Assembly: GCF_041381155.1 (NCBI RefSeq)
Contig: NC_091134.1
Span: forward strand, 28,215,540-28,279,539
Direction: 5' to 3'
Source: Argopecten irradians
Lineage: Eukaryota; Mollusca; Bivalvia; Pectinida; Pectinidae
DNA: 64,000 nucleotides
Of this stretch, positions 10,301-58,720 are shown one piece after another. A program made the position numbers and the translations under genes. Within the stretch, counting starts at the first letter, position 1, and the number at the start of each line of letters is the position of its first letter. The notes under the pieces are model-generated. The model did no database searches and was not told the origin of the DNA. It saw nothing but the letters and a program-made list of their open reading frames with translations.

Positions 10301-13300
10301 TACCCTGCCTCCACTTCTTTCCCGGCAGGGTATGAATTCCACCCCATTGCAATAGTGTTGCAAGCCTAGGTGTGATCCACATCAGGCACTTTGAGACAGA
10401 TAAAAATATTTTTTCCGGGTAATATCCTTATGTAACTGTATTGTTCTGACAACTATGATCAATATTCAATTCATAAACCTTTCCATTATATTGTTTCATC
10501 AACTATTAGTGATAAAATCTAAGGCAAACATAATGCATGTATAATTCTGTTCAAATACGCGCCATATTTGATTAACGGGAAACCATGACGAAAATGAAAC
10601 ACTCAATCACCAGGTAAAATATATTTAAGCTTAAAAGTTTTAAAAAGCCAAAAAACTGTAGAATAAAACATGGTAAAACTGAACAAATGATAGTATTATT
10701 TAGAATTTAGCGAAAAAGAATTTTTTTAAAGTTCATGTTAAAAACTTATTGACATTGTATTTCTTTCGTAGTGAAAATTTGTAGGTCTACCATATATGGT
10801 ACTAGTTGCCATATTTGGAGCACGAGACTTTTTAACGATAAGCATCATGGCGGCCAAGTGAGCCGTGTCGATGTGAGCCATTCAAAAGTGCTTCAAAATA
10901 AAATTTTGACATGTAGGTGGGTAATTATAAATAAATAATCATTTTATGTTTAAAAAGTTTGATATTTTTGAATTTAATTACAAAATTACATGACACATGT
11001 GAAATGTAACATTTTCACCGCTGGATGTTTTGCAACACTACGGTCAATGGGATGGAATCGTAGCTCTGACGACGACCATCTGTCAGAAATTTTTCTAAAT
11101 ATAGTCGGAGTACACACCGAACAACTACTGTAGCCGTAGATGACTACTACACAATATTCGTCAACGGTTAGGCAGTCACGACAGTAAAAGGAATGGATTA
11201 CAACAATCTTGACTTTGTTACCACTTACAAACGTATAGTTAGTTGTGTGAATGTTCTTGAGGATGTTTTCGTTTGCACTAACCTATATATAGCTACATAC
11301 GGCTGATCACTTCCGGTTACGTAAAGAATCAAATGAAATATGGTCTAATTACACAATGATCAGTCGATGCTGGTCATTATATGACATGGTCATTTCTAAA
11401 ATAATACATGTCTTCTGCTTCTTCATACAGAGAATTTATGTTATCCAACAACTACATAACCCGAGTGAGCTCTCAAAATTGAATTTCGAAACTTTCCGTG
11501 GGTAAACTTTTCCTTTAAATCGCTACTAGTCAAAGAGTTTTGAATGGATTTTAACCAAATTTGGCCAGAAACATCTTTAGTGGAAGGGGAACAGATTTGT
11601 ATAAATGGTGACTCTGACCCCCTTGGAGCCTGAGGGGCGGGGCCCAATAAGAAAAATAGAGGAAAATTCCTTCAAAACGCTACTGATTATAAGGTTCGTA
11701 TTGGATTTTGACCAAATTTGGCCAGAAACATTCGTAAGGAAATGGGAATAGATTTAGTATAAATTGTGACTCTGACCCCACTGGGGCATGAGGGGCGGGG
11801 GCTAATAGAGGAAATAAAGGAAAATTCCTTCAAAATGCTACTTGTGATAAAGTTTTGATTGGATTTTGACCAAATTTAGCCAGAAACATTCTTAGGGGAA
11901 GGGAAACAGAGTTTGTATAAATTGTGACTCTGACCCCCCTGGGGCAGGATGGACGAGGCTCAATAGGGGACATTTTGATAATTCTTTAAAACGCTACTTG
12001 TCATGAAGTTTCAAAAGAATTTCAACAGAATTTGTTCTAAAATATCTTAATGGGAAGGGGAACAGATTTTGTACGATTGGTGACTCTGTGACCCCCCTGG
12101 GGCCTGAGGGGCGGTAACCCAATAGGGGAAATAAAGGAAAATTCCTTCAAAAAGCTACTTATCATAAAGTTCTCATTGGATTTGACCAAATTAGGCAAGA
12201 AACATTCTTAGGGGAAGGGGAACAGATTTTGTATAAATGGTGACTCTGACTCCCCTGGCCCCTTTCATTTTGTAACAGTTTTAATGTAAATGTTTTCTAT
12301 CTGTATTTACTTTCAGACTGAGATAATGAAAAATGAATTTGAAAGGCTTCAATCACGACTTCCTATGGATATGTTAAATATGAAAAGGTAAGAACCATAA
12401 AGACTTCTCTGTTCTGTTTTTAGGTCATCTGATCTGAAGGGTCCATCGTTGTCTGCTGTTTGCTGTGTGAAAACTATTCATATTTTGTACTCTTTCAGTT
12501 CTACCAGAACAATTTAGCTGCAACTTGCCCGAAATCATTCTGACATTGTCCCGCATAAGCTTATGCCATGGCGCAGCATCCTAGGTCCGTCCGTCTGTCA
12601 AAACTTCCTTTCAATTACTACTAGACATATATATATATATAGAGAGAGGAGCAGAAGGAGCAGGGGCCAATAGGGAAAATAGAGGTAAATCCTTTTTATC
12701 CTGCAACTGCCCCACATACCGACGGATAACTACTGCCGGATAAACTTGTGCTTTATCCGTCAATACAAAATGCTTTATCCCTCAATATAGTCACGTGAAT
12801 TTGTTCCATATCTGACGGAATTTTTTCTTAACTTGACCCTGAACTTTAACCCTCTGGATATGAAACTTCATTCAGACCCGCTAAAAAGTGACGTCACATT
12901 CATCGGAATGACGTCTTTTTTACAATATCTTTTTATCGCTACAATGTCCAAGAGTTCAGGAGCCATAGAATGTAAACAATTAATAGCATCACACATACAA
13001 TTGGTGTATGGAAGGCTCCGAACACCGAAACTGAGATTTACATCATTGGATTATGACCCCACGGGGGAGCAGAGAGGGGCGGGGGACCATTAGTGGGAAT
13101 TATGAGGTAAAGTTCTTTAAAACTCGATACTTGTCCTTGAGTTTCTTGCCTGGATTTTAACAACAAATCAGCCACTCAACTTATCTGGGAGGAGAGGGAA
13201 AATAACTTAGTCAGAAATTTTGGATCTGACCCACCTGGGCAGGAGGGGGTGGTCGGAGGCCCAATATGGGAAATAGAGGGAAAAGTTCATTAATTCGATA

Positions 13301-16300
13301 ACTTGTCCTATGAGTTCTTGCTATACAGATTAGAATAACTTAATTGAGCTCACTATATACCTCCTTGGTGTGTAGGGGTCACTGAACTTGCGTTTAAATC
13401 TTTTGGCTCTGATTCAACGCAGGGGGCACTCGACGGGGCCGGGGCACCTCAAACGGGGAAAAAGAGGTTAAAATCCCTTAAGAGTCGCTACTAGATATTA
13501 GAGTTCCTGAATGGTATGTTAACAAATTTGGCCACCAATAATTACTGGAGGGAAGGGGATCTGAAAACTTGTAATAACATAATTTGGATATGGTCCAGCG
13601 GGGCAAGATGGGTCGAGAGGTGAACAATTGGGGAAAATAGAGGTTAATACCTCAACATTCGCGACTTGCGTGTTAATCACCTTTATTTCGATAATTTTCT
13701 TAGAGTTTCTGCTCGAAATGTTAAATAACATTTTGCGCACACATTCACCCTGGGTGGAATGGGGAACAGTACTTGCTGTTATATTTTAGGGCCTCTGACA
13801 CCCTGGGGAGGGCATGAGAGGTGGGCCCATTAAGCATTTGAACTAGAAGGTACCAACATCCTTTGAATCGCTACTAGTCATAGATTTCTGCATGGAATGT
13901 AACCAAATTTGGCCACAAAACACTCCTTGGGGGAAGGGGAACAGAACTTGTATAAATTTTTGGCTCTGGGCCCCCTGGGGGCAGGACGGGTGTGGCCCAA
14001 TAGGGAAAATTAGAGGTAAATTCTATTAATCGCTACTTGTCCTAGAGTTCCTGCATGGATTGTAACTAAATTTGGCCACAAACATCCTTTGGGGAAGGGG
14101 AACAGAACTTGTAATCAAATTTTGGCTCTCTGACCACCCCGGGGGCAGGAGAGGGGGGGGGCCACAATAGGGGAAATAGAGTGGTAAATCCATTAAATCG
14201 CTACTTGTCATAGAGTTCTGTATTGGATTGTAACTAAATTTGGCCACCAAACATCCTGGTGTGGATGGGTACACCCGACCATTGTAGTATAAATTTAGCC
14301 TCAGACACTCATGGGGGCAGGAGACGGTGGGCCACCCAATAGCTAGGTAATAGAGGTATACATTCCTTTTGTAACGCTACTAGTCAATAGATCTTCAGCC
14401 TGGAATATAACCAAATTTGTGTGCCATCAAACCCAAGATCCTTGGCGGGGATGGGTAACACGTTCTTGTATAAAATTTTCGGCTTCTAGCCCCCCCCCCG
14501 GGGCATGGACGGGTTGTGTGTGACCATTAGGGGTAATTAAAAGGTACTATCCTCCTAAAATCGTCTACTTGTTCTCCTAAAGTTATGCTATGCATGAATT
14601 GTGTCCAAAAATCTGTGGCCATAAAAATCCTCATTGGTGGGAAGGATAACCGATAACTTTGGCATCATGACCACACCTGGGGCGCAGGGTGGGTGGTCCC
14701 ACAATTGGTGGACTTAAAGGTTTTTATATTACACATTCCTTACAGAACAGAAACAATGACACCATGCTATTCCGAACATTACTTGAGCATTACAAACCAG
14801 GTGAGGTCGTCTCTAATATATATCCCTCTGGGTCTCTTGTTTTATACCAATTCACAAATCTCGTTTTGGAGGACGCAGCCGTCTTTTTACTTGTGCCGCC
14901 TTTAACTAAAGTAAAATTCACTGTATTGAGTTATTTCTTGATGGGGGGACATTAACGTTTGTATAGTAGTAATTATTTCCCTATTGTTTTAGTCATCTTA
15001 CACACCGAATACGATATACTGATACTGAAAACAGTGCACGAACTTGCCGCATTTAATTTTTCACTACGGGTAAGTAAAAACTGAGTACACTCTTAATTCG
15101 GTTTTTCATTTACGTGAAATCAACACCTCTTACATCTCAAAGAAGACCTCTCCACTTTGAGGCCAAACACAAAGTAAAGATAACTGGCATTTTAGCTTTC
15201 TTGTTTATGAATGTATGAGATGGTTGCTTGCTGGACATTAAACATATTACATGGTAAGGTTTATTACTAAACAAAGATGTTTATTTAGCGTGTGCTCGCC
15301 ACAGGAATGCCGTGATATGATCTTGGCGACAGCCTTGTCAACTAGGCATTTTCCCAAAGTCACCACCTCAAAATACACCCTGTTGTCTTGTATAGATAAT
15401 CCCACCATGTATTCTCATATAAATCTCCAAGTCATAGAGTTTATTTCTCATGATCATTTGTAATCCAAATTTAAAGAAAAGTAAACAAGCCTCTTTTGAA
15501 CGGATAATCAGAATATTGCCTCGATTTTGGCTTCAACATACCCCCCACCTCAACCAACCCACCTGCGCAGAGAGAGATGAGTGGGATCCACCTATATGGG
15601 AAAATTGTGGTTAGACCATTTTTAGGTCGACTAAGTGTACCTATATGTTCTGAATCAGTTTATAAAGAAAGGTGTAAAATAATGGATGCAGATCAGCTTA
15701 TTAGCAGTTCATGACATCTAATTCCAAATGAGTAGCACTAATCATGTTACTTGTAATGAGATAGGGCTTATTGATATGAGATGGTTTTTATATAAATAAA
15801 AAAGAATTTTCATCTCTGTTACCACACACAAAATTAAGTTTCCATCATTTAGTCCACCATTTTACGACACTGGGGCAGCGAGGCCATTAAGATCTATCTT
15901 CCCTAGCTTCAATTGAAGTGCTGTGTCGCTTATTAACTCTTAAAATACAAGGACAATAACCGCTGTACCTAAACACATCATTTTTCAAACTATCAATTAT
16001 TGTTTGGTTATTTTCTTAGTTTTCAGCAAAAATTTTAAACGATTACAGATTTTAATTGCTCGTTCACATAGAACAAACTGACGGATAACTCGTGATTCTA
16101 CTTTTTGAATTTTTCATCAGTTGTCTGAGCTGAACTTCACAAACACAATATTTAACAAAAACTACAAAAGATATTTTGTCTATAATGTTTAATCAATCAG
16201 GACTTAAACAATGCAAATATGAATTTTTACCCTTGTGAAAACCCCTCCTTTGGCCAGAAAAAAAGTTGTTTTTGGTGATTTACACATTTTTGAACGATGG

Positions 16301-19300
16301 AAAAAATTGAAACCAAATATAGCATTAAAACATCAAGTCATGTTTTTTTAGCATAAAATATGAACCTTAATTTAGTTAATGAACATATAATTTTATGTTC
16401 TTGATTAGTTCATGAATTAAAAAAAAGTTCATGACAATCTTCTCATGGTCATAAACAGTTCATGGAAAAATATATTTAGAGATTATGTAACTTCATGGAC
16501 ATTGGTTCATGAAACTTTGTAACGAAAAATTTAACAAACAATTCATGAACATGAAGAGGCCTCTGAGAGTACAGGAGAACAAATTTTGTATAAAGGAGCT
16601 CTGACCCCCTGGAGCAGAAAGAGTGGGGGCCCAATAGGGAATTTAGAGGTAAATCTTAAATTCCTTCAGAAAATTAAAGAAACAATGATCCTGTATTCAG
16701 AACATTACTTGGCATTTACAAACCACTGGTCAGCGACATAGGCTCTCTGGCCCTCTTGTTAATTTTTGGGTTGATCTGAAATCTAAGATGGTCGCCACAG
16801 CCTTCAACATTAAAACACATCTTGAAAATGGTCTCGATTAAGTTCTACCAAGCTCAAGTTCTGAGAATTTGATAACAATGGCACTTTCGTTCATATCTTC
16901 TACTTCTAAAATGATATTTAAAACATGGCTTGTGAGATGTCATCTATTGTTATAGCTTGAGGTATAGTACGGGTGCAAAAGTACTACTATTATCACTACT
17001 TTTTTTTTTACTGTGGATTAGTTAACCCTTTTCCTGTGAAACTATTCCTTCAGGGATTAGGTAACTCTTACAAAGTTGAAGGTAAATGTTAGAGACTTTT
17101 TGAACATGGGACATAGAATGTAGTCAGAAATACATCCTCATTTTATTAAATCCACAGAGAAAATGAATCTCCGCAAATTATGATTCGATATGACTTATGT
17201 TTGATAGAGTATCATACTATATGTTTAAATTTATTCTGTTCCGCGAAAGTTATTTCCACGAACTTTCGCAAAATTAAAAGTTTGTTTACAGTAAACTCAG
17301 ATACTTCAACTTGTCAATGTTATCGTGATGTATTTTCATAATACTTCCATCACTTCATTCCATATTTTTCAATGTCAGATCTTGGTTTTCGGGGGCAAGT
17401 TGCAGCTAAATAGTTCTGGTAGAAACTGAAAGAGTCAAAATATGAATAGTTTAACACATAGCAAACAGCAGACAACGATGGAACCCTTCAGATCAGATTA
17501 CCTAACCAAGAGATCCCAGAGGGATCATCTTGCTGCCCATCTAAGAACGATCTTTGTATATTTCATCATTTCTTCACAGCACTGTATCCATAACCAGAAA
17601 AGAATTCACTTTAACAAATCCAGAAGAGAGACGATTAAGATTAAAATTCATGAGGACAGTTGCTGAATTTCTCTGCCCACAATGAAATAACAGATACTTG
17701 ACATGATTTTTCCATATTTCGTATATCCAAATCACTTCACATTCTATAAAAGTGGCATCTATCAAACTTTACATCCCAACAACTTTCATGAAAGATAATA
17801 ATTCAGAAGGAATACTTTCAAAAAACACGCTCTTCTGCCACATGATTTCACTTTTTGTGTGTACATGGACCGGTAGTATCATGATCCAAAATATTGGGGA
17901 ATATTTTGTGGATTTTTTTTTTTTCTCACTAAATTTTGATTAGCTCCCTAGGGCCTGTGTTGCATGTGAAAAGATTTTTGCCCAAACACTTCAAATTTAT
18001 ATCCAAAAATCATCACTACTGTGTTAAATCTGGATACAGAGCTACATATTTATGATCCTCCATGTTGAACCGTGAAAACTAAGCTGAGTAAATTGTTTCA
18101 GTGTGAGTACCATATTGTACCTGTGCATGAGATCCGTCTTTCAATAAAAAACATGCAAATCATGAAAATGAACCATGAATAGGTAACAAGTTTAAATATG
18201 TAGGTAGTGTTTACCTGGAGCTTTGGAATAGTTAAATCGAATACCCAGTGTAATAGTGGAAAGTAACCAGAGACATGAGAGTGCCATGTTTTAAGTATGA
18301 GAAAACACCTCATGGGCCTCAAATTGTAATTCATTATCTTGACCGATCCACAGCGTTCGATGTATCTCCTATGCGTATAAAGTAATACACAATTTTGTGA
18401 CAATTGAATGGAGTAAAACCAGGATATGATGGTCCTGTGGGCTTCTTTTGTTATGATAAAATCAATTCATGCTTTGTTCATGTTGTATGTGAAATAAAAA
18501 CTTTTTTTTTCCTTTCTAAGGTATGAATTACCACAGCCTACAGCTGGTAAGATGACAGATGTGTCAGCTTGGACAGAATGTGTAGAGAACTCTCAGGCGC
18601 AGCTCGAGCATCAAAGTCTTAGGTTGGTTATTTCTGTACTAAATAAGACTAGATCATTTACTAACATGACTTGTAATAAACATGTTAGTAAGATATATAT
18701 TATTTTGATAAGTGTTTAGATGAACTATCTAATCCTACATATTATCTTACAGTTAATCAAGGTGTGGATGTTCTCTTTTACAAATATAGTTCTTTTTGTG
18801 TATCAGAATTTAGAAATGTGATTTTAACTCTTCAAAATTATTGATTGCAAAAGATATGTGCATATTCTGTCCAGATTAATAGGATCCACTTGAATATTTC
18901 CCTTTGATCTCACCGGGAGTTTTGACTGCAATCTCACCAGAAAAAAGACCAGGATCCCAGCGAGAAATGACCAGGAAATCTTGGTTGATTTGGCGTAAAA
19001 ATGGTCATTTCTCGAGGGATATTTGACAAAATTCAAGTGGTTCCTTTCAATCGCTTGACAGGAGACTGAACATATCTTTTATACTATTGATCAATTTACA
19101 ATATTAATCATATAATAATTTTGCTTCTCAACAAACAAATGAAGTTTGATATTTGTATTTAGTAATATTTTAAACAAAGAATTCTACATTATTATCACAT
19201 CAATCCTACAATAGACAATTAATAAAATGATTTTTTAGCTCACCTGGCCCGGAGAGCAGGTGAGCTTATGTTCATGGTGCATCGTCCGTCGTCCTTCCGT

Positions 19301-22300
19301 CAACAATTTCCTTTAAATCCGCTACTTGTCTACTTGTAATAGAGTTCTGCATGGGTTGTAAAGAAATTTGGCCAGGAACATCCTTTTGGGAAGGGGAACA
19401 GAGTTTGTATAAATTTTGGCTCTGACCCCCCAGGGTTGGGAGGGGAGGGGTCCAATAGGGGAAATAGTGGTAAATTCTTTAAATCGCTACTAGTCATAGA
19501 GTTCTGCATGGATTGCAACCAAAGGACTAGGTATAGTAAGGGTCTTTTTTGGCCTCCTATTTTTGAAATTCTGTTATTTTAAGATGTTAATCTTGCATTT
19601 CAAATGTTAACTATATACCTGACATATTTGATAGTGCTATTATGTAATATAGCAGTTCTAGTTGCCATGGCAACCATTTTTATTATACATAAATTATGCA
19701 AAATGTGAAAATTTCATCAAAATTGGCCTTTTTATGCAGATCATCTAGTTAACATAGAGCACATTCTAGAACAATCTTCATATTTCTCAAAATGATGTAT
19801 TCTTCGTTTCTGGTAATTCCCTTAAAATATAAAGTCTGTTCTAGGTTGTGCTCTATTGCTTTTAAAAGAAAAACTATCAAAAAATATGCCAAAATTGACC
19901 TAATTATCAAATTTGCATAATTTATGCAAAGTTACCATGGTTATATAGCAAAAACATACTTTCTGTAAACAAAAATATCAATAAGTTTTTATCAGGGGCG
20001 TATTCAATTTTTCAAACACAGCAACTTAATTTCTAAATACTTAATTTGAAATTTGGTAGATTTAGGGGCCAAAAAGAGCCATCACCATATGTAGTCCTTT
20101 GACCAAAAATATCCTTTGGGGAAGGGTAACCGAGTTTGTATAAATTAAGGCTCTGAACCCCCAGGGGCAGGAAAGGCGGGGCCCAATAGGGGAAATAAAG
20201 GTAAATTCTTTAAATCGTTACTTGTCATAGAGTTCTGCATGGATTGTAACCAAATTTGGCCAGTATCATCCTTGGGCAAAGGGGAACAGAGTTTGTATAA
20301 ATTTTGGCTCTGACCCCCTGATGCAGAAAGAGTGGGGCCCAATAGGGAAATTAGAATTGAATGTTTAAATTTCTTCAGAAAATAAGCAATGATCCTGTAT
20401 TCAGAACATTACTTGGCATTACAAACCAGATGAGCGATACAGGCCCTCTGGGCCCCTTGTTAGGTATTTTAATCAAAGAGTCAGGATGACCTATAATCAT
20501 CATGCTCCATCTTGTGATCCTGTCTGTCACGCGCCATGTGTAAAACCTGATATACTAGGATGAATGGCTACAAAGTTTAAATGTATTCAAGTAACTTTTA
20601 CCTACTTTTAAAGTCAAAATCATCAAATATTTTGGAAACTTACTTTGGAAGCTTCAATTAAGGAATTTGTTGTATCATATAACTATGCTAGCCACTACTG
20701 TATACTGTAACTGTTCTTTTGTGTGAATAGTCAGATGAACAATAAAGCCCTTCGACCACTTGTTCTTTTGATAGGATTATGAACTTGGAGCTAATATCAG
20801 AATTTGGATCCCATACTTGGAAGAACTACAACAATGTCCTTGTTCAGATGTTGGACTCTGCTCAAAAACATTTACAGGAACTAAGGTAACACCTTTAAAC
20901 AGTCAGCCTAAACGATGTAACGTTCTCCATTTGGCCACTGTTTTAGAGACACAAGGAAAAGTGTTGGTATAGGAGAACAATGGTAAACCAATCATAGTCA
21001 GTTCCATAATAATTTTACCTGTGCTTACCTGTGTTCGTTTACCTGAGCTACCCAGGGTTCACCCAGTGGTCGCCAATGACATATTTTGCGAAAAAAATAT
21101 TTCATTGGCGATAAAATTATGATTTTGGCCATTTTTTTGGCGACAGAAAAATCGGCCATTCAAAACTTGAAGCCATGTGTTCATCCATAATATCATAAGT
21201 TGTACAGGTAGAAATTGATCTTATCCAGGTAAATCAGAGTCCAGGTTGTTTGTTAATTAGTGTCATGACTTGGAAAGCTAGCATGAAAGCTAGCTGTCAA
21301 ATACCAGATGCAGTGACCCATATCGGTGTGTTTACACAACACTGCTACTCTACCGGTGATGGTCTAGCCGTTCACTTGGAAGCTTGTTACAGCTTGGTAA
21401 ACTCAGTTGATAAATAAATCATCACAAAGAACAAAACAAGATGTGAAAATCATTGTCACATATGTCAATCAAAACCATTTTACTTACATGCCTTTCAATG
21501 CAAAGCAAACAAGACCGACTGAGCATATGGCTCATCAGCCGCCATTTTACGTCCGTCCATAGTCGTCCGTCCGTCAACATTTCCTTCAAATCGCTACTAG
21601 TCCTAAAGTTCTGCATGGATTCTAACCAAATTTGGCCAGAAACACCCTTGGGGGAAGGGGAACAGAGTGTGTATTAATTTTGGCTCTGACCTCCCCCCCC
21701 CCCCCCCCCCCCCCCACGGGCAGGAGGGGCGGGGCAAAATAGGGGAAATAGAGGTAAAGCCTTTAAATTGCTACTAGTCATAGAGTTCTGCATGGAATGT
21801 AACCAAATTTGGCCAGAAATATTGATCCTTGGGGGAAGGGGAACAGAGTTTGTGTAAATTTTGGCTCTGACCCCCCAGGGGAGGAGTGTCGGGGCCCAAT
21901 TTGAGAAATAGAGGTAAATACTTTAAATCGCTACTTGTTATATAGTTCCTCATGGAATGTAAACAAATTTGTCCAGAAACACCCTTTGGGGAAGGGGAAC
22001 AGAGTTTGTTTTAATTTTGGCTTTGACCCCCCTGGGGGCAGGAGGGGCGGGGCCCAATATGGGAAATAGAGCTAAATCCTTTAAATTGCTACTAGTGAGA
22101 GTTCTGCATGGAATGTAACCAAATTTGGCCAGAAACATCCTTGGGGGAAGGGGAATAGAGTTTGTATAAATTTTAGCTCTGATCCCACGGAACCAAAAGG
22201 GGTCAATTTGGCTATTTCCATAAAAACAACTTCTTCTCTGAAACTAAGCATGGGATAGCACACATAATGCAATGATAACATCCTTATAGGGTAGAAATTC

Positions 22301-31855: not shown

Positions 31856-31856
31856 A

Positions 31857-32400
31857 CAAGAGGCCCTTGGGCCTTAACGGTCACCTGAGTTCGGATACAG
31901 AATGAAACAAAGACATATAAATATACACTATATATTGGCCCATCAGGCCCTTGAAGTCAGTCAGTGATTTTATAAATTTGACTTTTTAATCTATGGTTCC
32001 ATCGAATCTGTGAATTCAGAAGAAAGATTTTTGAAATTTGTGTCATTTTGACCCGCCCCTCTGGCCCCCTATAGGGGTCAGCTTAAGGACCAATATTGAT
32101 CAGATGTTAAAATGCTATCTCAGGCTAATAATTCTAATCCAGTTTGACTCATTTCCTTTGAAAACTAAGCAAATAATGTTCATAAATGTGTTTTTCCTAT
32201 ATAAACTTCGTAAATTTGTACCCCTCTATAGAGGGAAACGTGAGACCCCAGGGTCATATAATTCACAATTTTTGTAAAGGACTTTAAGACCTTTCCATCT
32301 ATGAAGAGTATTTGATTCTACCATATTTGGAATTACAGAAGAAGATTTTTGAAGTTTTAGCCTATTTGACCCCTTTTGGCCCCACCCCTCCCCCTGTCAA
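31857..32400 (+). mobile_element. Family F Helentron-like repeat, 5' end plus core
   Basis: 5' signature 'aacaagaggcccttgggcct' then 'taacggtcacctgagttcgg', continuing into the family F core. A (CATACA)-rich 18-bp array replaces its 3' end at 32409. Confidence 0.7.
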
Positions 32401-32480: not shown

Positions 32481-32906
32481 CAGCCGCAGACTAACTACAT
32501 GTATGCTTGGTGTACTAAGCTAGCGAGCGAATGTAAGTAATATGAAGTGTTTTAGATTATATGATATGTATAAACAGTCCATCGCACTTCAATTTGTTTT
32601 TGTTTTTTTAACTAAACATGCCGTGGCAAACTGTCACTGCCATCTGACTTTTTGTTGCACGCTTCCGTTTGTTTCTGCAACCTAGTTTTGGAAAAATAAA
32701 TCATGTTCTATGAAAAGCTTGACTTTGCTCTATTTTTAGAGGAGTATTTTCCTGGTCAAGCTAGGCAACTGACCACCCATATTCTTTGCTGTATGCATTG
32801 AAAATGATCTGAAGATTATATCTATGTACAGGATAAGTTTCAATTTCGTAGTCTTTATATTTCATTGGGCGAAACCTACCTTTAAGGCATGTAAGGCATA
32901 AATACA
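32481..32906. other. Intergenic, no recognised feature
   Basis: Mixed AT-rich sequence with no open frame, repeat word or RNA gene that I can support. Confidence 0.3.
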
Positions 32907-33197
32907 GGAGGCCCATGGGCCTGTACGCTCATCTGACTATTAGTACAATACAACATAGTCATTTAAAGATTTTAGCCTGTTTGTTCCTTGTGACCTTTAT
33001 TGAAGATCAAGTTCATTCATTTGAACAAACTTTGTAGCCCTTCATCCCAGCATTCTACAGGCCAAATATCAGTACCCTGGTCCTTACGGTTATAATGAGA
33101 AGAAGTCATTTGAATGAAAATTTATGCATGGCGGACGACAACGGACGGTGCATGATGACAAAGGGTCATCCTGACCCTTCAGGTCAGATGACCTAAA
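32907..33197 (+). mobile_element. Family C Helentron-like element, complete and short
   Basis: 5' signature 'ggaggcccatgggcctgtac' then the tag 'gctcatctgac'. One core unit contains 'aacaaactttgtagcccttc'. A run 'ggcggacgacaacggacgg' follows, then the 3' hairpin 'gggtcatcctgacccttcag' and 'gtcagatgacctaaaa'. The 3' arm repeats the 5' tag in inverted form. Confidence 0.75.
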
Positions 33198-33860: not shown

Positions 33861-33882
33861 ATGATCGAATATGTGTTTATAT

Positions 33883-33975
33883 AAGAGGCCCAAAGGACCT
33901 GTTTCGCTCACCTGGTTTGTAATGTCAACAAGAGGCCCATGGGCCTTAACGGTCATCTGACTCATGGCGCAAAAC
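33883..33975 (+). repeat. Two Helentron-like 5' ends in direct contact
   Basis: A family A 5' end ('aagaggcccaaaggacctgt' then 'ttcgctcacctggtttgtaa') is cut after about 43 bp by a second 5' end ('aacaagaggcccatgggcct' then 'taacggtcatctgac'). This shows one copy inserted just inside the terminus of another. Confidence 0.65.
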
Positions 33976-39800: not shown

Positions 39801-42800
39801 TTTTGAGAATCAATATTACAAAAGACCCACAGATCTTAACCATCAGCTGCGTTCTAAAGCATTACCCAGCAGACACATGATGGCAATTACATTTTATTTC
39901 AAAAATCATACTTATATAGTTCATATTGACCACAGAAGGTCTTTATGTCAGAAAATATACATTTGAATAGTGAATTAAACAATGATTATCTCCCTCCAGT
40001 CTTACATTTAGTACTGCAAGGGATGTTAATGGGTCAGGACCATCTAACCAACTAACGACGGATGATGCATGATGACAAAACAAAACACTCACTGATGAGT
40101 ATAACAATAAACACTTAAAAGTCAGTAGATCTATATATATTATAAAAATCATTAATACTATAGGCTAATTAATTTTAATCAACCATCACCTGTACTCTAC
40201 AATATGGCAAACAGATGCAATTATGTAAACTAACCGTCGATCAAGCTCATAGTTGATCTGCTGTTTCATAAACATTGCATTCTTCAGGAGATCCTGGATG
40301 TTCTGGAAGTGTGTGTTACTCTTGTGGAGACCCTTGACAGCACTGAAGAAAAGAACAACACACATAAACCATGAACTAGGATTAATATTTCATCTTGTTT
40401 TACTTGATGTTGAACATCACAGAATTTGTAATCAACAAAAAATAGGCACATAGGACTAACAGTCATCTGACTATTATATACTATATAGTTTGTGGTAGCT
40501 AACAATTAAGACAATATACAAGGAACTCCTTACTCGAAGATGTAAGTTTCTGATATATTTGATGATTTTGACCATAAGATTTGGTCAAGGTCATTCATTA
40601 AAAATTTTTTTTAGTAGTCCTTCATCCAGCATCCTACAGGACCAATATCAGGTCTCCAGGACTCTTAGTTATTCAGAAGAAGTTGTATAAAAGACTTTGA
40701 CCTTGAATGAAGGTTGACATCATTCATTTGAACAAACTTGAAAGTCCTTCAACACAGCACTCTACAGACTATTGACAAGAAGTTATGTAAAGATTTAAGC
40801 CTATTTGACTGCTATGACCATTAATGAATGTCAAAGTCATTTATTTGAACAAACATGGTAGCACTTCATCCTAGCATGCTACAGGCCAAACATCAGTATA
40901 CCCTGAGCCTTTTGGTTACTGAGACGAAGTGATCTGAATGAAAGTTAAAGCACAATGATGGACGGTGTCCATATATATATGGTATTTAAGATCCGTTCAG
41001 CACTTTCTGAGAAATAGCGGTAACAAACTTTAACTATCAAAATCCAAGAATACTCCCTGTCAGCCATCTTGTAGACCGATCGGTCCCAAAATGCAACATG
41101 CACAAAAAGGCCCTAGGGGAACCTACATGTGAAATTTGAGAGAGATCCGTTGAGTACTTTCTGAGAAATAGCGGTAACAAACTTTAACTATCAAAATCCA
41201 AGATGGCAGCCTGGCGGCCCTCTTGTTGACCGTTTGGTTTCAAAATGCAATATGCACAACTAGGGCCCTAGGAGAACCTACATGTAAAATCTGAGAGAGA
41301 TACCTTCTGTACTCTCTGAGATATAGTGGTAACAAACTTTAAATATCAAAATCCATGATGAAAGCCTGGCGGCCATCTTGTAGACTGATCGGTCCCAAAA
41401 TGCAATATGCACAACTAGGGCCCTTAAGGGGAACCTACATGTGAAATTTGAGATAGATCCGTTGACAGTACTTCCTTTGACTAAGTGTTTCCATGGTAAC
41501 GAAAAATATTCCAACAAGGACATAGTCATTCAGATCCCCCGCCAATGGAGATATCAAAGCTGAAGTAAGTTTGATTGTAGAGACTTATGTGTATGAAAAA
41601 AAACAGGAAAAAGGAAGTTGAGCTAAAGAAAGATGGAGTATAATTCAAGTAGAGCGGGGCTGCAATTGTTGAATCAGGTATACAGCCTTGACATTTATAT
41701 TAGACTGCATACACAAAGATGGGTGGAGTTTTGCAAAGTAACATTTACCATTTACCATGATATTTTCAGCAATGTTTCCATGGTAACGGAAAAAGTGAAA
41801 AAAATGAAAACCTAAAAATAGCAAAAGGTACTACTAGACCATAAAAAGAAAAGAATGTGTCTATGAAGTTTCGTGGAAATATCGCTGCTGGTTTTAGAGT
41901 TATGCTCCGGAAATGAACCTGCTACAAAAATATGATATTTTCAGCAATGTTTCTATGGTTACAGAAAAAAGCACAAAAAGTGAAAACCTCAAAATAGCAA
42001 AAGGCACTACTAGACCATAAGAACAATGTGTCTATGAAGTTTCATGGAAATATCTCTGCCGGTTTCAGAGTTGTGCTCCGGAAACGATTCTTACACAAAA
42101 ATCTGCCATTTTCAGCAATGTTTCCATGGTTACAGAAAAAAGTACAAAAAGTGAAAACATTAAAATAGCAAAAGGCACTACTAGACCATAAGACCAATGT
42201 GTCTATGAAGTTTCGTGGAAACATCTCTTCTGGTTTTAGAGTTATGCTCCGGAAACGAACCTGGTACAAAAATATGATATTTTCAGCAATGTTTCCATGG
42301 TTACGAAAAAAATGCAAAAAATGAAAACCTAAAAATAGCAAAAGGCACTACTAGACCATAAGACCAATGTGTGTATGAAGTTTCGTGGAAATATCCCTAC
42401 TGGTTTTAGAGTTATGCTTCGGAAACCATTCGTACGGACGGACGGACGGACGGAACCCATTTGTATATCCCCCGCCAACTTTGTTGGGCGGGGGATAAAA
42501 ATGGAACTTGTCCCCAATAGCAAAAGGCACAACTAGGGCATTTGTCTGATGTATACAGAAAAATTCAAGGAGTTAATAGTAGGGAAACAAAAGCAAACAG
42601 TTATTTGGTATTTTTGACTTAATTTCCATGGTAATGTTAAAAATAACCAAAATGGAAGGTCTGAAATAGCAAAAGGCACAACTAGGGAACTTGTCTGATA
42701 TATTCAGAAAGTTTCATGGAGCTGTGTTGAACAGTTGAAAATTCCTTTTTAACAAAACAATACGTAGTATTCTAAGTTTTAGAGGGGTGCATGAAATGGG

Positions 42801-49324: not shown

Positions 49325-49883
49325 AAACAAAGAGGCCAATGGGTCTTAATATGGTCACCTGAGTTCGGATACAGAATGAAACAAGACATATAAACACAAC
49401 ATAAACATTATATATATATTGGTCAGTCAGACTCTTGAAGTCTGTCAATTGCAATGATTATATCAATTTGACCTTTTAATCTATGAAGAGTATTTGATTC
49501 CATAACATCTGTTTTACATTTCCTATGAAAATTGAGCAAATAATACTCATAATTATGTGTTTTTCCTATATCAACTATAGCAAATTTGACCTATTTCCCT
49601 GAGGAAAATCTGAAACCCAGGGCTAAGAAATTCACAGATTTTGTAGAGGGCCTCGAAACCTTTCAATCTATGAGCTTGAAGACAATTTGATTCTACCATA
49701 CCTGCGAGAGTTGAAACTTTAGTCAATTTTACCCCTTTTGGCTCCTACCACAGCCCCCTGGGGGATGGGTCCATATAATTCAAAATTTATATTGGCCTTA
49801 TGTCTTACAAGGTTTGTGCAAAATTTCACTTTCAAAATTTTACTTCAGCAGTTTTAGAGAAGAAGTTGAAAATGTAAATTGAG
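49325..49883 (+). mobile_element. Family F Helentron-like element, 5' part (split by DIRS)
   Basis: The 5' signature is decayed ('aacaaagaggccaatgggtc'), followed by 'ggtcacctgagttcggatac' and the family F core. It is cut at 'aaatgtaaattg' (49881). Its 3' end resumes at about 55030 on the far side of the DIRS element. Confidence 0.75.
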
Positions 49884-50284: not shown

Positions 50285-51420
50285 TTATGAACCAGCTGAT
50301 CTTCTGCTCTCCACCGACTTCAAGATCTCAGCCCTGACAAAACATCCTTCCCCCTTCCAAACATCCTTAATGCAGAACGACGTAAAGATTTTCTCCTGTG
50401 CCCAGTGTGCTGCCCTCACAATCTCAGAAATGGGAACTTTAGCAAAGAGTGCCCAAGAGGTGGCTAATTGAAGAGTATCGTGTGCTCTAGCCAGCTGTAT
50501 GTGCCTCTCTTCTGTGGACTCGTAACAAAATTTCATAACTGAAACGATCCAACGAGCAATAGAATCCTTTGATGCCTCCCTGTGGTTACCAAATTGGTAT
50601 GTAAGGAAAAGGCGTGTCTTATCGCCTCTATTAGACTTTAACCTATTGACATAAAGTCTCAATGCCTGATATGGACACAACTTCAAATCTGCCTCCTCTG
50701 TCGCATAAGCCGTAAACTTTGGAAGGAAAAATGCCTCCCATGGTTTCCCAAGACGTTGATTCTTAGCCAAAAACTATATGTAAGGCAGCAAACGAACGCC
50801 TACTTGCTCCCAGCAGATATGATCTCTTTCCACTGATAATGCATGTAACTCACTAGATCTAGCTGCAGAAGCCACTGCCAACAGAAAAACTGCTTTCAAA
50901 GTAAGCCATTTCAACGGGGCTTCTTCTAGAGGTTCAAATGGAGATTCTGTAAGCTTCAGCAAAACAAGTGGCAAACTCCAGTTTGGAACCAATGATCGAA
51001 ACTCTGGTCTGCTATTAAAAAGACCCTTCACACGTCGAGATAAATCTATTAGTCCCAATAGCTTCACCCTGCGTATGAATAACTCCAATCGCTCATGACC
51101 TATAACAAGCTAATGTAGAAACCTTATATCCTTTCATCTGATGAAGGTGTAACAGAAAATCTGCTATATTACTTAAAGTTGCTGTACATGGATCAATCTG
51201 CCGTTCCTCACACCAGCTGTTGTAGCATATGATTCTGGCATTATAGACTGCCTGTGTAGAAGGCCGTCGAGATGCGGAGATTGCTTGAACAACCTCCTGT
51301 GAAAATCCCTTTGTAGCGTAAGCCTGCTTGACACTTTCCATAGAGTCAGTCGAAACATCCTCGAATCTGGATGTATTAGTCTGCCCCTTTGTTGTGTCAG
51401 CAACAACTCATGAACAGGTA
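50285..51420 (-). pseudogene. DIRS tyrosine recombinase region (fossil)
   Basis: The N-terminal SAM-like part includes PSTQAVYNARIICYNSW. The catalytic part includes AARSSELHAL and, near the end, HDTLQLATSWA, the expected Arg and His-rich boxes of DIRS-type recombinases. Broken copy. Confidence 0.8.
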
Positions 51421-51499
51421 AACTCCCCTGGGTAATCCATTAAAAGTTCGAGAAGCTGTACATATGGATACCATGATTGGCGTGGCCATCTTGGAGCTA

Positions 51500-53110
51500 C
51501 TAGAAGGACCACGCAATCCTCTTGCGTTTAACTCTCCGCAGAACCTGAGGAATCAAAACTTTTTGAGGTAATGCGTAAGCAAACATTCCTCCCCATGGAA
51601 CCGATAGTGCATCCACCGTCCATGCTGCCTCCTCTGGAAACGGGCAACAGATAACTGGTGGCTTCTTGTTCTTCTTTGTCGCTAAGAGATCGATCTGAGG
51701 TTGTCCCAAAACATGAAACATATAGATTGCACACTTCCTGACATAGGGACCATTCCGTGGCCTGAACCATCCGGCCCCTGGAAAGCGAATCTGCCAAAAC
51801 ATTCCTTCTCCCCGGAATATGAGCTGATTTTAACTGAATCTGATTTTCCTAGCACCATAGCAGCTTCTCCCATGTCAAGTAACAAAGATCTGCAGAATGA
51901 GTTCCCCCCTGTTTGCTGATATAACTGACTACTGTTGAGTTGTCGCATCTCAGTCTGACAGACCGTCCCATCACCTTGGAATGAAACCCTTTTAACGCTA
52001 GTAGGAGGGCTTTCATTTCTAACCAATTGATGTGATGTTTGGCTTCCCAACTGTTCCATAGACCAGACCTCACTCCTTCCTCTAGATGGGCTCCCCAGCC
52101 CTGGTTCGAAGCATCCATGACTAGTGTGGTCTCCATCAGTGTGGTCTGTAGGCTCATGCCCTTCAGAAGATTTACCCGAGACTTCCACCATCTTAAAGCT
52201 TCAAACAGTGGCTCCCTCACTGGAATCAAAGTCTGAACCGATTGAGATGATGGTTCTCCACAGGGCTAACAAGTATAGCTGAATTCAACTTATGCAGAGG
52301 CGTCCCATAGAAACCAGAAGTATACATGCTGCCATCTACCCCAGCAAGCGCAGCACTTCTTGTGCTGATACCAACCTTGACTGCTCTATCTGTCTGACGA
52401 GACTCTGAATAGTCTCCACTTTTTTATAGTTGGCCTGACCACACCTTCCTTCAGGCAAATGTCTGCCCTTAGATGAGTTATTGTCTGGGTGGGATATAAA
52501 ACTGACTTCTCCAGATTGATCAGAAGTCCTGGCCTTTTGGCCAATGTCACTGTAGCCTGCAGTGATCTTTTCACAACCTCTGGACTTCGTCCCTTCACCA
52601 AGCAGTCGTCTAGATATTGAAACAAATGATGCTGATCCTGGTGAAGCCATGCCGCAATAACTCCCATCAACTTGGTGAATACCCATGGAGCTGAGCTGAG
52701 GCCGAACGGCATTGCAATAAACTGTAGGTGTCTGCCGTCCACACAAAACCAAAGAAATCGTTGGAAGGCTGAGTGCACTTGAACATGCAGATGTGCGTCC
52801 TGAAGATCTATACTTGAAATGAACTTTCTCCAAAAACTGATTTAGGATGCGCAGGTTTAAAATAGGCTGAACTTTGCACAAAAAACGTACTGTAAAACCC
52901 GGAACCCACCTCGTCCTCGGGAACATATTCTATAGCACCTTTTTCTAAAAGGCTTTCTACTTGTTGTAGAATCACTTGTTGTAAGACTGCCTTGCCTTGG
53001 ACCCTTGTCTGCTTGATCCCTGTATCTGCAGGAATCTTGATGAATTGGAGTTTTAATCCTACCTGAATAGTGTTCCTCACCCACTCTTCGTCAGTAATCT
53101 GCACCCATTC
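51500..53110 (-). pseudogene. DIRS reverse transcriptase / RNase H region (fossil)
   Basis: The RT contains AMPFGLSSAPWVFTKLM and LFQYLDDCLVKG. The RNase H part contains VMDASNQGWGAHL, LEMKALLLAL and RCDNSTVVSYI, followed by an ADSLSRG motif typical of DIRS and related pol genes. Broken copy. Confidence 0.85.
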
Positions 53111-55620: not shown

Positions 55621-55820
55621 TTAATGTTTTTAGACTTTTGTTTGCAAATTTTTTCATATTTATCATACAGCTACTGCATATTTTATAATCAATTCAAATT
55701 TTTTCATAATTGAGCTTAAATCTTGATTTACTAAATATAAATAATAAATAATACAATTTTTGACCAAAATTTGAAGAATCAAATTCCCCTATATTTCATC
55801 AAACTTTTCCCCTATTCTGA
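55621..55820. other. AT-rich spacer
   Basis: No recognised feature. Confidence 0.3.
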
Positions 55821-55821
55821 A

Positions 55822-56312
55822 CAAGAGGCCCAGAGGGTCTGTATCGCTCAAATGGTTTGTAATGCCAAGTAATGTTCTGAATACAGGTTCAGTTTTTTCT
55901 TTTCTGAAGGAATTTGAATAATTACCTCTAATTTCCCTATTGGGCCCCACCCCTCCTGCCCCAAGGGGGTCAGAGCCAAAACTTATTCAAGTACTGTTCC
56001 CCTTCCCCAAAGGATGTTTGTGGCCAAATTTAGTCACAATCCATGCAGAACTCTAAGACAAATAGCGATTTAAAGGATTTACCTTAATTTCCCATATTGG
56101 GCCCCGCCCCTCCTGCCCCCGGGGGGTCAGAGCCAAAATCTATATAAGTTCTGTTCCCCTTCCCCAAAGGATGTTTGTGGCCAAATTTGGTTACAATCCA
56201 TGCAGAACTCTATGACTAGTGGCAATTTAAAGGAAATGATGATGGACGGACGGATGACGAATGCCATGCCATGACATAAGCTCACCGGCCCTTCGAGCCA
56301 GGTGAGCTAAAA
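55822..56312 (+). mobile_element. Family A Helentron-like element, compact complete copy (~490 bp)
   Basis: The best reference copy. 5' 'aacaagaggcccagagggtc' and 'tgtatcgctcaaatgg'; two core units (~160 bp); 'gatggacggacggatgacga'; then the hairpin 'gctcaccggcccttcgagcc' + 'aggtgagctaaaaa'. The 5' tag and hairpin arm are near inverted copies. Confidence 0.85.
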
Positions 56313-56335
56313 ACGAATATTTGCAATAATGAGAG

Positions 56336-56840
56336 AAACAAGAGATCCGAGAGGGATCTTGGAGCCCACCAAAGAATGATCTATATCTGACAATGGAAAG
56401 ATGGATCTTTTCTCTACTTTTTAAACTTTTTCAAACATACTACTCATAAAATTTGAGACAGATTGCTTAAGTACCTTTTGAGAAATAGCAGTAACAAACT
56501 TCAACTATCAAAATTCAAGATGGCTCATTGGCGGCCATCTTGTTGATCAATCGGTCCCAAAATCACAATATGCACAACAAGGGCCCTTTGGGAACCTACA
56601 TGTGAAATTTGAGAAAGATCCATTCAATACTTTCTGAGAAATAACGATAAGAAACTTTGAATATCAAAATCCAAGATGGCAGCCTGGCGGCCATCTTGTT
56701 CACCGATTGGTCCAAAAATGCAATATGCACAACCAGGGCCCTTGGGGAACCTACATGTGAAATTTGGAAAAGATCCCTTAAGCACTTTTTGAGAAATAGT
56801 GATATCAAACCTTAACTATCATCATCAATGGTGGGCTAAA
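56336..56840 (+). mobile_element. Family E element with 5' end
   Basis: 5' 'aacaagagatccgagaggga' then 'tcttggagcccaccaaagaa', and three core units. It starts only ~25 bp after the family A terminus, so the two abut. Confidence 0.75.
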
Positions 56841-57076
56841 AAAAGAGAAAATTTTGGGTTGATATTTGACAAAATATTGTAAAATTGGATCCCAAATCTA
56901 ACCGTACCAAAATTATTATTGCAGCTTGTTTATATTGTGGCGAAATCTCTAATAAACATAATTCCTGGTACGGGGATCGGGTATGGTCAATCACGAAATC
57001 ACCTCCACTATATTTCAACTCGGACTTCATCGAAAGCACCCCAACTAGTGATCCTGACAACATCATAACTATATAT
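56841..57076. other. Unassigned stretch, open on both strands
   Basis: Frames of 71 codons (+) and 90 codons (-) overlap here. The + frame is entered after a possible acceptor 'ttattattgcag'. Neither resembles a family I know. It could be a decayed exon or chance. Confidence 0.25.
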
Positions 57077-57077
57077 A

Positions 57078-57888
57078 CTGGGTCGCGACCATTACCGTGA
57101 TGTACCAATTACCGTGATTTCATTGCACGCTCTATCTCCCGCACAATCTTTTGAATTTTTTTAACAACTTAATCATGGTAGCCATGTAAGTGTTCATTTA
57201 ACTGTTAACAAAAATAATGGTCATTTGCAACCGATATTGCAAACAAATCTACGTTTTCCTTTTGAAATCAAAGTTTGCAATGCTCAATCATAGCGGGGAT
57301 AGGTTGAAATCATGACTTACTTGCATATTAATCATGAAATTTCATTAAATAATCGTTAATTATGTTTGTCAGTCGCTTAAAAAATCGTCTGCATCACAGT
57401 AAGTCAAAGTATGCAAAACCATGGGTAAGCTTATACGGCAAGTTATCGATCGGGCAATTCAAGGATGGACAGGATTGTAAAACAGAAAGTAGTTTTTGGC
57501 TGGTGAATACGTCTTGTGTTTACTTTTTTATCAAACAAAATAAACTTATGTCTATTAATTGAATTTCTGAACGTTTTAGGTCGTCTACATATTTGATTGT
57601 CTAAATTTACTCCTGCCCAGAGCTGAATCCTATTTTTAGTGACACCTATCGAACGCACCTTTAGACAGTCCTTTTTTCCGTGATACTTTCGATCAGTCAC
57701 TGGATCCCAAAATAACAATGCATTACGATTAAATTATTCCACTAAAAGATATCAAATAGATGTTGATCGCTTTAATGAAACACAAAGTAAGTTTTGGTGC
57801 AATAAGCATGTTTTTATAAGTGCATTTCCTTTAACTGGTCCTGTACACAAAATCATCGAAAAAATCACGGTAACTAGTCGCGACCCAG
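57078..57888. mobile_element. TA-flanked TIR MITE, 811 bp
   Basis: The ends 'ctgggtcgcgaccattaccg' and 'cggtaactagtcgcgaccca(g)' are inverted, and TA flanks each side (57076-57077 and 57889-57890). A subterminal 'taccgtgat' is also mirrored. No transposase is seen. This is consistent with a Tc1/mariner-dependent MITE. Confidence 0.8.
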
Positions 57889-58019
57889 TATCCTACCGGA
57901 CCTGTTCACATACAATTTTAAGATCTTCCTATTGCACAAATGCATCTCCATTGTACCTTGCATTCTCCTCCTCTCTGTAGTATAGTTGTAATTTATTGCA
58001 TGGTCCATGCATTGGCGTC

Positions 58020-58200
58020 CTAGCCCGGAATTTCAGATCACACGATCGTCATCACAACGAAAAAATAACCGGAAGTCGGCCACCGGAAGTTGCTCGGCTC
58101 GGCCCGTGTCGCTGAGAATCGTAAGTAGGTGGTGGTAAAATCTTGTATCCCGTGCCGCGCCCGCGCCGGGGACCCGCGCCGAGCTTTGGTTATTTTTACT
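58020..58200. promoter_or_regulatory. CpG- and ETS-rich promoter-like patch
   Basis: The only CpG-rich stretch of its kind here. It has two 'ccggaagt' ETS cores (58069 and 58082) followed by 'gctgagaatcgtaagtagg', a strong + strand splice donor. This looks like a housekeeping-gene start with a non-coding first exon, or a bidirectional promoter also serving BORCS8. No coding exon for a + strand gene is seen before the window ends. Confidence 0.35.
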
Positions 58201-58530
58201 TTTCTCCTTAAAGACAGCATACATTAAAATAATATTTTGCACAATTAGTCTTTGTATTAATCTTTATCTTTCCGTGTAAGTTATGTTATTTGAGATGATT
58301 CGGAACTTTGTAAAATCGCCGATTTCAGATTGTCAAGTGTCATTTGTTTAAGTAGTTGTACCCCGCGCTCTTGAAAGCATTGAGTTTCAAGGTTTTATGC
58401 AGATTATTTCAAAAGTGACCTTTTGTTGTATTAATTGTTATAATTCCAACAACAAATAAACCTAGTTGATTACAAATATATATACTTCAACATAAATTAC
58501 AAATCATTTCATAACAAATTCTGCCTTTTT

Positions 58531-58720
58531 AGGTTACCTGAGACGAAGTCTCAAGTGACCTATTCTAATCGCATTTTGTCCGTCGTCGTCGTCCGTCGTA
58601 TGGCGATAAACAATAGGAAAAACACATTTTTGAGCATTATTTGGTCATTTGTTATAGGAAATATATGGCAAGCCAATTTAACATTTATTGAAGGAGCAAG
58701 GTACATGTGTATCCCGTATT
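58531..58720 (-). mobile_element. Helentron-like 3' end (GGTYACYTGAG type), reverse
   Basis: 'ttaggttacctgagacgaag' with 'tctcaagtgacct' is a hairpin. It is followed inward by a CCGTCGT-type run (58578-58598) and 'ggcgataaacaataggaaa'. It is the family F terminus in reverse orientation. Confidence 0.65.

Follow-up and report, generated by a model that had tools for sequence, protein, structure and literature searches.

The closest described systems are the DINE-1 elements of Drosophila, the Helentrons and the HINEs of oyster. In the accessible parts of the 2008 account of DINE-1 (PMC2374699), subterminal inverted repeats (subTIRs) vary by species while the structure is kept, the stem shows compensatory changes, and an interrupted inverted repeat (IR) is on record. 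Helentron families have been defined by their subTIRs since 2014 (PMC4067079, in the sections available), and the available text on oyster Cg_HINE (PMC7492417) describes subTIRs, IRs and stems with changes specific to individual elements. Given these precedents in DINE-1, Helentrons and Cg_HINE, co-variation of element ends is not new. The window analyzed here, a 64,000-nucleotide stretch of the Argopecten irradians genome, contains repeats of at least five families that are, with a probability of about 90%, HINEs, that is, non-autonomous rolling-circle (Helentron) elements of DINE-1/Pearl type, because their anatomy agrees part by part with DINE-1/HINE. The matched end sequences are the subTIRs, the features that already serve to define such families. 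New here are the records of the individual families and the observation that none of the 48 tested A/C/F-type hairpins has a perfect stem, in contrast to family G.

The initial annotation had noted a resemblance to Pearl and Helentron elements, which the part-by-part anatomy bears out, and had read each repeat from a 5' signature and tag to a 3' hairpin. Reading the opposite strand puts the parts in the published DINE-1/HINE order, and the earlier polarity is therefore reversed: the 'tag' is the 3' subTIR and the 'signature' is the terminal palindrome. The striking pattern in the raw sequence is thus the known Helentron end anatomy read backwards. Elements of families A, C and F run in the order host TTWT, TA, the 5' subTIR, a short loop, an interrupted inverted repeat, a GTCC-type microsatellite, a tandem core, the 3' subTIR, a spacer of 5–6 nt, the terminal palindrome and TCTTGT, followed by host sequence that usually begins with T. 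The palindrome in these three families (GGCCC..GGGCC) lies 6 nt from the element end and 5–6 nt from the subTIR; it is weak in the family H copy. Tandem core units measure 156–171 bp in the A, G and H copies of the window, and ACGG units were seen in 50 of 58 records (an uncontrolled count over the 110 bases preceding the hairpin end). Five features used to recognize Helentrons and HINEs were found, namely subTIRs, an adjacent inverted repeat, a 3' palindrome, T-rich insertion without duplication, and a microsatellite with tandem repeats. Canonical Helitrons (5' TC, 3' CTRR, no inverted repeats, insertion between A and T) were considered and rejected; the ends here are TAG..TTGT, with subTIRs and insertion into a T tract.

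Five families (A, C, F, G and H) were distinguished in the window, where four had been claimed and three listed. The plus-strand family A element spans 55821–56310, with the terminal palindrome (the former 5' signature, 3' in Helentron polarity) at 55821–55839 (signature scan, one mismatch), a decayed tag, or 3' subTIR, GCTCAAATGG at 55846–55855, a tandem core with a 157-bp unit at 55922–56234, and a hairpin at 56280–56307 (folding scan, −9.4 kcal/mol), the right arm of which is the 5' subTIR and the left arm the interrupted inverted repeat. The minus-strand copy (20460–19235) has its palindrome at 20442–20460 (signature scan), a tag decayed to GCTCATCTGG, and a hairpin at 19238–19265 that was detected both by the hairpin scan without bulges and by the folding scan. 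The bulge-free scan of the window found family A and missed C and F, and folding was used instead. The family C element (plus strand, 32904–33196) comprises a palindrome at 32904–32922 (signature scan), the tag GCTCATCTGAC at 32927–32937, one base away from the common GGTCATCTGAC, and a hairpin at 33164–33193 (folding scan). Both A copies and the C element thus lie where the initial annotation had placed them, with decayed tags. At 33881–33946 (plus strand), a 47-bp family A end fragment directly adjoins the start of a C-type element (33928). Chimeric or abutting elements were also observed at L085, L009, L012 and L024.

For family F, a palindrome and tag are present on the plus strand at 31856–31889, and a second, decayed copy of both at 49327–49363 (plus strand). 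The own hairpin end of the first was not found: no F-type arm (at most one substitution) occurs in the 1.34 kb up to 33196, and the arm at 33196 is a C arm that belongs to the C element. The F hairpin at 58532–58560 (folding scan) lies on the minus strand and had been misread as plus; the 3' sequence quoted for it, CTCAAGTGACCTA, is not the right arm but complements GGTCACTTGAG, the imperfect left arm; the right arm is CTCAGGTGACC in other copies and CTCAGGTAACC in this one. Families G and H are additions to the original list. The G element (56338–56839, plus strand, signature at 56338) contains the tag GCCCACCA at 56364, a 156-bp core at 56449–56821 and the right arm ATGGTGGGCTAA at 56828–56839, and its left arm is not recognizable. 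The H element (41514–42497, plus strand) contains the tag ATCCCCCGCC at 41534, a 171-bp core at 41757–42426 and a hairpin at 42468–42495. Both ends are known in two copies for family G (L004 and the window) and in one for family H. The A, C, G and H elements of the window hold no open frame of at least 150 aa (table 11), and the three window ORFs of at least 150 aa (table 11) gave no Pfam match at E 0.001. The cores, described earlier as completely different between families, mostly are so; the exceptions with long core matches are a few records, L024 (C ends with an A core), L030, L091 and one mis-joined record.

The opening proposed as common to all families, ACAAGAGGCCCANNGGGCC, is that of family A, but C and F open with the shorter ACAAGAGGCCCWWGGGCC, G with ACAAGAGATCC..GGATCT and H with ACAAGGACATAG. 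One end signature has 10,529 matches in the genome (at most one mismatch) compared with 30 for the reversed control, and the shorter spelling ACAAGAGGCCCWWGGGCC has 5,370 compared with 0. With up to three mismatches allowed, the end signature occurs 14 times in the window, against 0.07 expected by chance. Exact patterns give genome totals of 7,126 hairpin arms and 8,880 tagged ends, such that a single genome provides a very large sample for testing the role of the subTIRs.

Five paralogous empty sites with exact joins (L034, L047, L058, L081 and L082; those of L034 and L047 being copies inside the same locus) show insertion without duplication into an A/T tract, and at all five the signature coincides with the element end. 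The junction is ambiguous in two further comparisons (L026 and L118). The flanks of 59 records have A at +1 in all 59, A/T at +2 in 58, A at +3 in 58 and A at +4 in 54, with background composition beyond, and A at −1 in 51; on the other strand this pattern is TTWT^T. These records were collapsed from 84 nearest-arm joins and still include a few mis-joined ones; false cases of such joining included the link between the window start at 31856 and the C arm at 33196, as well as L098, which was counted repeatedly because of the 48-bp array that forms its start. The short, non-coding nature of the elements, their inverted repeats and high copy number would also suit TIR-type MITEs, the class to which Pearl was first assigned. 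That classification was rejected on the lack of a target-site duplication at the five empty sites; one of the inverted repeats is, moreover, clearly internal, with the terminal palindrome after it, and a TIR-type origin is hardly credible.

The match between tag and hairpin arm was assessed with hairpins from a scan that ignored the tags and filtered on length, energy and a preceding ATA or TAA, a filter picked after inspection of the hairpin list and a first pairing. A signature lies upstream of 42 of the 60 hairpins, and the other 18 have none in the sampled DNA. Among the 42 pairs, a set that keeps every miss, 32 have at least 8 of 10 bases in agreement between tag and right arm, and 24 of these have all 10; the remaining 10 pairs match at fewer than 8, and by eye some of these are false hairpins or wrong starts and others are decayed. 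Compared with the reverse complement of the right arm (best of 16 offsets), the tags score a mean of 8.40 of 10 over the 42 sampled pairs, versus a mean of 7.43 and a maximum of 8.12 in 10,000 permutations of tags and arms among all pairs, and 5.17 for a letter-shuffled baseline. Pairing by coordinates (124 tags and 100 arms from the portion of contig C1 that was sampled, with most tags unpaired) joined members of the same family in 45 of 47 cases, versus 29 in the best of 10,000 shuffles, and in 51 of 54 with a 4-kb limit (shuffle maximum 33), so tags and hairpins do not combine freely in this sample, in which all copies come from one contig and family labels were assigned by arm. In the five-family matrix, 48 of 50 bases match within the family, and the true pairing is the only one among 120 to reach 48.

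Within families, shuffled pairs equal or beat the true pairs in 3,025 of 10,000 trials. There is no sign of end coupling in individual copies, and the match of tag and arm is a property of the family. The coupling claimed in the initial annotation accordingly stands at the level of families but not of copies, and the accompanying suggestion that joint changes at the two ends give rise to new families restates the Helentron family definition. Helentron families are expected to share at least 11 identical subTIR bases; the identity extends over 11 bp in intact C and F copies and over only 10 in A and in tag subtype D (GGTCATCTGAG), which mismatches its own arm at position 11. The E-type tag GGTCACCTGACA, found at 38 of 93 places in one rare-end set, predicts an arm GTCAGGTGACC that is absent from the 100 arms listed, where fewer than one would be expected on these numbers. 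If each family simply descended from a founder copy with matched ends, and nothing maintained the match, within-family shuffles would show no residual coupling and the concordance of coordinate pairing would equal family identity, both as seen. Unconstrained ends of diverged families should, however, drift apart independently, whereas the five families differ jointly at several tag/arm positions and are still matched at 48 of 50; descent alone is therefore an unlikely explanation.

Published work on Helentrons suggests that a Rep/helicase protein made elsewhere would act on both ends, with the subTIRs as its putative family-specific recognition sites and the terminal palindrome as a probable termination signal. 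Across families, the two subTIRs would stay matched since each has to fit the same protein (or the other subTIR); within a family, single copies would decay after insertion. Helitron-like Rep domains (PF14214) have 104 matches in this genome and 0 in 14 control genomes. Six Rep loci (~3 kb each) contain no end signature, and their five subTIR-like matches represent one coding stretch. The Rep-domain proteins, compared with the sampled loci, matched only at the Rep loci themselves. For two sets of rarer end types, proximity to the 89 Rep places did not clearly exceed chance: 0 of 74 and 2 of 93 places lay at a distance of up to 20 kb, where 0.31 and 0.39 would be expected. With the polarity established above, Rep falls outside the element for one of the two near ends, and the other implies an element length of ~17 kb. 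These Rep loci and proximity counts revealed no autonomous copy linked to the ends.

The hairpin stems were compared in 48 hairpins, obtained from the 60 by removing 8 not of A/C/F type (among them two of the family G type, one being L004, and H with a bulge) and 4 with an identical right flank. None has a perfect outer 11-nt stem. Of 68 lesions, 56 fall at positions 6–9, where they comprise deletion of T, insertion of T, C or A, and changes from C to T or to A; the copies of a family have their lesion in common by descent, and the 48 hairpins are not 48 independent events. In contrast, all 10 bp pair perfectly in the L004 hairpin of family G, and the family H tag agrees with the left arm over 12 bases, further than with the right arm (10).

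These stems bear on a doubtful alternative based on nucleic-acid pairing, by which the 3' subTIR would pair with the hairpin right arm in a single-stranded intermediate, uniting the ends and displacing the imperfect left arm. The full 10-base agreement in 24 of the 42 blind pairs and the recurrent lesions are consistent with it, whereas families G and H, the inheritance of lesions and the lack of copy-level compensation, with within-family shuffles as good as true pairs, argue against it; in the available description of DINE-1 (PMC2374699), an interrupted inverted repeat is already present, and it may represent two protein half-sites. A bolder version, which we consider very unlikely, is that the lesion at positions 6–9 is selected in A, C and F and that the imperfect 5' hairpin and the exactly matching 3' subTIR form a strand-exchange switch. 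In competition with the left arm, the 3' end would then capture the right arm, which would signal complete unwinding of the element, and the differing lesions at one place in A, A2, C and F would reflect a weak point re-created repeatedly. Families G and H depart from this scheme and would need to manage without the switch; the weak point that recurs in three families lends itself to testing. The ends might also be kept alike by template switching or gene conversion between copies in inverted orientation, rather than by selection, in that one short element holds three near-copies of the same 10–11 bases and chimeric or abutting elements exist. Repair of the left arm would then be expected as well, yet that arm is imperfect in every one of the 48 A/C/F-type hairpins, and this explanation is accordingly improbable.

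The elements compare with known systems as follows. The available account of Drosophila DINE-1 (PMC2374699) likewise describes species-variable subTIRs near both ends, a partial or interrupted inverted repeat by the 5' subTIR, a GTCY microsatellite, unrelated central repeats, T^T insertion, and a stem-loop, varying by compensatory change, a few nucleotides beyond the 3' subTIR. Unlike DINE-1, the sequences here are different ones, several families occur side by side in a single genome, and the terminal palindrome ACAAGAGGCCC..GGGCC is common to three of the five window families. The HINE-Mo elements and Helentrons of Metaseiulus, in the sections available (PMC4067079), share subTIRs with a 3' palindrome, a T-rich and unmodified target site and families defined by subTIRs; the mite subTIRs, however, are themselves palindromic, without a separate IR. 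Cg_HINE of Crassostrea gigas, compared by published description (PMC7492417, in part) and not by sequence identity, has a 5' subTIR of 11–12 bp, a complementary IR, a microsatellite (GTCY, GTCC or GTCK in several), a satellite-like tandem core, and a 3' subTIR followed by a palindrome. In one Cg_HINE group, the subTIR, IR and stem carry changes particular to each element, and another has common flanks with different cores. The bivalve elements Pearl, MgE and DTC84, compared by their descriptions as cited in the available parts of PMC7492417 and PMC5139131, are similarly modular, with core repeats of ~160 bp in Pearl.

The window occupies 28,215,540–28,279,539 of contig C1 (NC_091134.1) in an 846-Mb genome. 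Signature, tag and hairpin (left arm, loop and right arm) are named here in the strand of the initial annotation. Allowing up to 3 mismatches, the window contains 14 matches to the end signature ACAAGAGGCCCANNGGGCC, versus 0.07 expected; genome-wide there are 10,529 with up to 1 mismatch, versus 30 for a backwards control. A shorter spelling of the signature (ACAAGAGGCCCWWGGGCC) has 5,370 genome matches and right arms with the pattern CTTYGKSYCAGRTGASCTAA number 7,126, versus none in the control in either case. The tag GGTCACCTGACA, whose sequence combines the C and F spellings, was carried by 38 of the 93 ends listed genome-wide; no hairpin partner for it was found among the 100 arms listed, where fewer than one was expected.

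Hairpins were identified independently of the tags in the window and in 118 loci that surround end signatures within the initial ~9.2 Mb of C1. All 16,524 TAA sites (both strands) were folded as DNA, each with the preceding 36 bases, which yielded 1,482 single hairpins ending at the site. A filter set after viewing the hairpin list (length 22–33, energy ≤ −4.5 kcal/mol, ATA or TAA before) retained 60 hairpins, 42 with an upstream end signature within the sampled DNA and 18 with none there. Each tag was scored against the reverse complement of the right arm over 10 bases, taking the best of 16 offsets. The 42 pairs had a mean match of 8.40/10, with 32 pairs at 8 or more and 24 at 10/10, compared to a mean of 7.43 (maximum 8.12) in 10,000 shuffles of the arms across all pairs and a letters-shuffled baseline of 5.17/10. 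When arms were shuffled inside families only, the mean was 8.37 and 3,025 of 10,000 shuffles equaled or exceeded the true pairs. Therefore, the match between tag and arm belongs to the family, not to the individual copy.

A second comparison used 100 arms and 124 tags below C1:8.65 Mb, taken from exact-match pattern lists. Each tag was joined to the closest downstream arm on the same strand, within 2.6 kb and with no intervening listed tag. The resulting pairs were of the same family in 45 of 47 cases (A-A 21, C-C 14, F-F 7, D-C 2, Cx-C 1, where D and Cx are further tag spellings and D tags were scored as C, although position 11 differs between the D tag and the C arm). Concordance in 10,000 shuffles averaged 17.8 and did not exceed 29; with the limit widened to 4 kb, it was 51/54 (shuffle maximum 33). 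The two discordant pairs were both A-F and, since the lists contain exact matches only, may represent two adjacent elements. The family spellings over 10 bases are GCTCACCTGG for A, GGTCATCTGA for C, GGTCACCTGA for F, GCCCACCA.. for G (two copies in which both ends are present, window 56338–56839 and locus L004) and ATCCCCCGCC for H (one copy, window 41514–42497). Across these five families, each tag with its own arm gives 48/50 matching bases, and this is the only one of the 120 pairings to reach that score.

The cores were compared using 58 trimmed cores plus those of G and H. Matches were frequent inside families (A 291/378, C 124/253 and F 15/21 pairs) and fewer across them (A-C 41/644, C-F 29/161, A-F 67/196), where they were short except in a few records; the G and H cores had no match among the compared cores. 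Locus L024 contains an A-type core between a C-type tag and arm, with the left arm lost. Thus, in this one clear case, the core has separated from the ends while both ends are still matched.

The hairpin stem is imperfect in families A, C and F. Among the 60 hairpins, 52 are of A, C or F type, or 48 after collapsing four with repeated flanks, and none of the 48 has a perfect outer 11-nt stem. The lesions take several forms and 56 of 68 fall at positions 6–9. In contrast, the tag is identical to the right arm over 10 bases in 24 of the 42 pairs. Two cases count against a general rule of imperfect stems: the family G hairpin of L004 is perfect over 10 bp, and agreement with the family H tag extends further along the left arm than along the right. 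An interrupted inverted repeat is already known from DINE-1 (PMC2374699). Because copies of a family inherit a lesion by descent, the independent events are few. A functional weak point in the stem is possible but not likely.

For 84 element records, the flanks were joined and searched against the sampled DNA, and seven junction-spanning matches were inspected. Five are uninterrupted versions with an exact join, whereas the junctions of L026 and L118 were not clear. The empty sites of L034 and L047 are further copies within their own locus; that of L058 is in the window at 43753 (88.8% over 160 bp), that of L081 in L078 (90.7%) and that of L082 in L004 (91.9% over 160 bp). None of the five shows a target-site duplication. 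The bases after the CTA end are A (59/59), A or T (58/59), A (58/59) and A (54/59), then background, in 59 collapsed records that include a few mis-joined ones; the base preceding ACAAG is A in 51 of the 59. Read on the opposite strand, these flanks give insertion into TTWT^T.

Several copies abut or are compounded. Elements in L009, L012, L085 and at window 20460 (minus strand) begin exactly at the CTA end of an element of a different family, head to tail with zero spacer. Paired end signatures 119–130 bp apart occur in L031, L032, L081 and L090, and by coordinates in L073; in the first four, the second signature lacks the usual tag. This looks like a composite end common to several copies. 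In L098 (C1:9156993–9158993), positions 101–1250 form an array of 48-bp units, each consisting of terminal palindrome, spacer and tag (GTCACCTGA), with 8 identical units among the 9 listed; the array heads towards a C-type hairpin at 1791 and is the terminal 48 bp of the element, repeated. At C1:5414617–5431409 (including L036–L038), six C-type signatures recur every 3,354–3,357 bp, and an element is carried within this larger tandem array.

By analogy with the cited work, a Helentron Rep/helicase protein would move these elements. In Helraiser, a related Helitron, termination is signaled by the terminal hairpin, and the opposite end is essential (PMC4778049). The subTIRs of the present elements (subterminal inverted repeats, described below) may be recognized by a protein or may pair with one another. 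The Helitron-like Rep domain PF14214 has 104 matches in the genome. No end signatures were found in six sampled Rep loci, and rarer end types near Rep places were not above chance. One Rep domain (C13:22429010) lies 3.9 kb from an end signature (C13:22432884), on the outer side of the element given the polarity found here; this proximity could be due to chance (0.39 expected for the set). Three clustered open frames of 161–196 aa (table 11) at window 50285–52926 (minus strand) have no Pfam match.

The initial annotation had proposed a family-specific 5' tag matched to a 3' hairpin in Pearl/Helentron-like elements. The matched ends are real, strong and coupled at the family level; the polarity was assigned to the wrong side, and such coupling is the defining anatomy of an already known kind of element. 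As described in PMC2374699, DINE-1 carries subterminal inverted repeats (subTIRs) of 13 bp, the 5' one adjoined by an inverted repeat that is partial or interrupted. It also has a GTCY microsatellite, central repeats that are unrelated, T-T insertion, and a stem-loop a few nucleotides beyond the 3' subTIR whose stem differs between species through compensatory change. This published order is recovered on the reversed strand, and thus the tag corresponds to the 3' subTIR. The "3' hairpin" comprises the 5' subTIR and its inverted repeat, and what was called the "5' signature" is the 3' terminal palindrome. The ACGG run of the initial annotation is the same kind of microsatellite as GTCY on the opposite strand; 50 of 58 records have at least one ACGG within the 110 bases preceding the hairpin end (a count without a control set). 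Helentrons and their non-autonomous derivatives (HINEs) insert into T-rich targets without target-site modification, and a family is defined by an identical subTIR of at least 11 bp (PMC4067079). Oyster Cg_HINEs, as described in PMC7492417, have an 11–12 bp subTIR, a complementary inverted repeat and a microsatellite on the left and a subTIR and palindrome on the right; one group has changes in subTIR, inverted repeat and stem specific to each element, and another has common flanks with differing cores. The separation of ends and core reported for these oyster elements is likewise seen here in L024.
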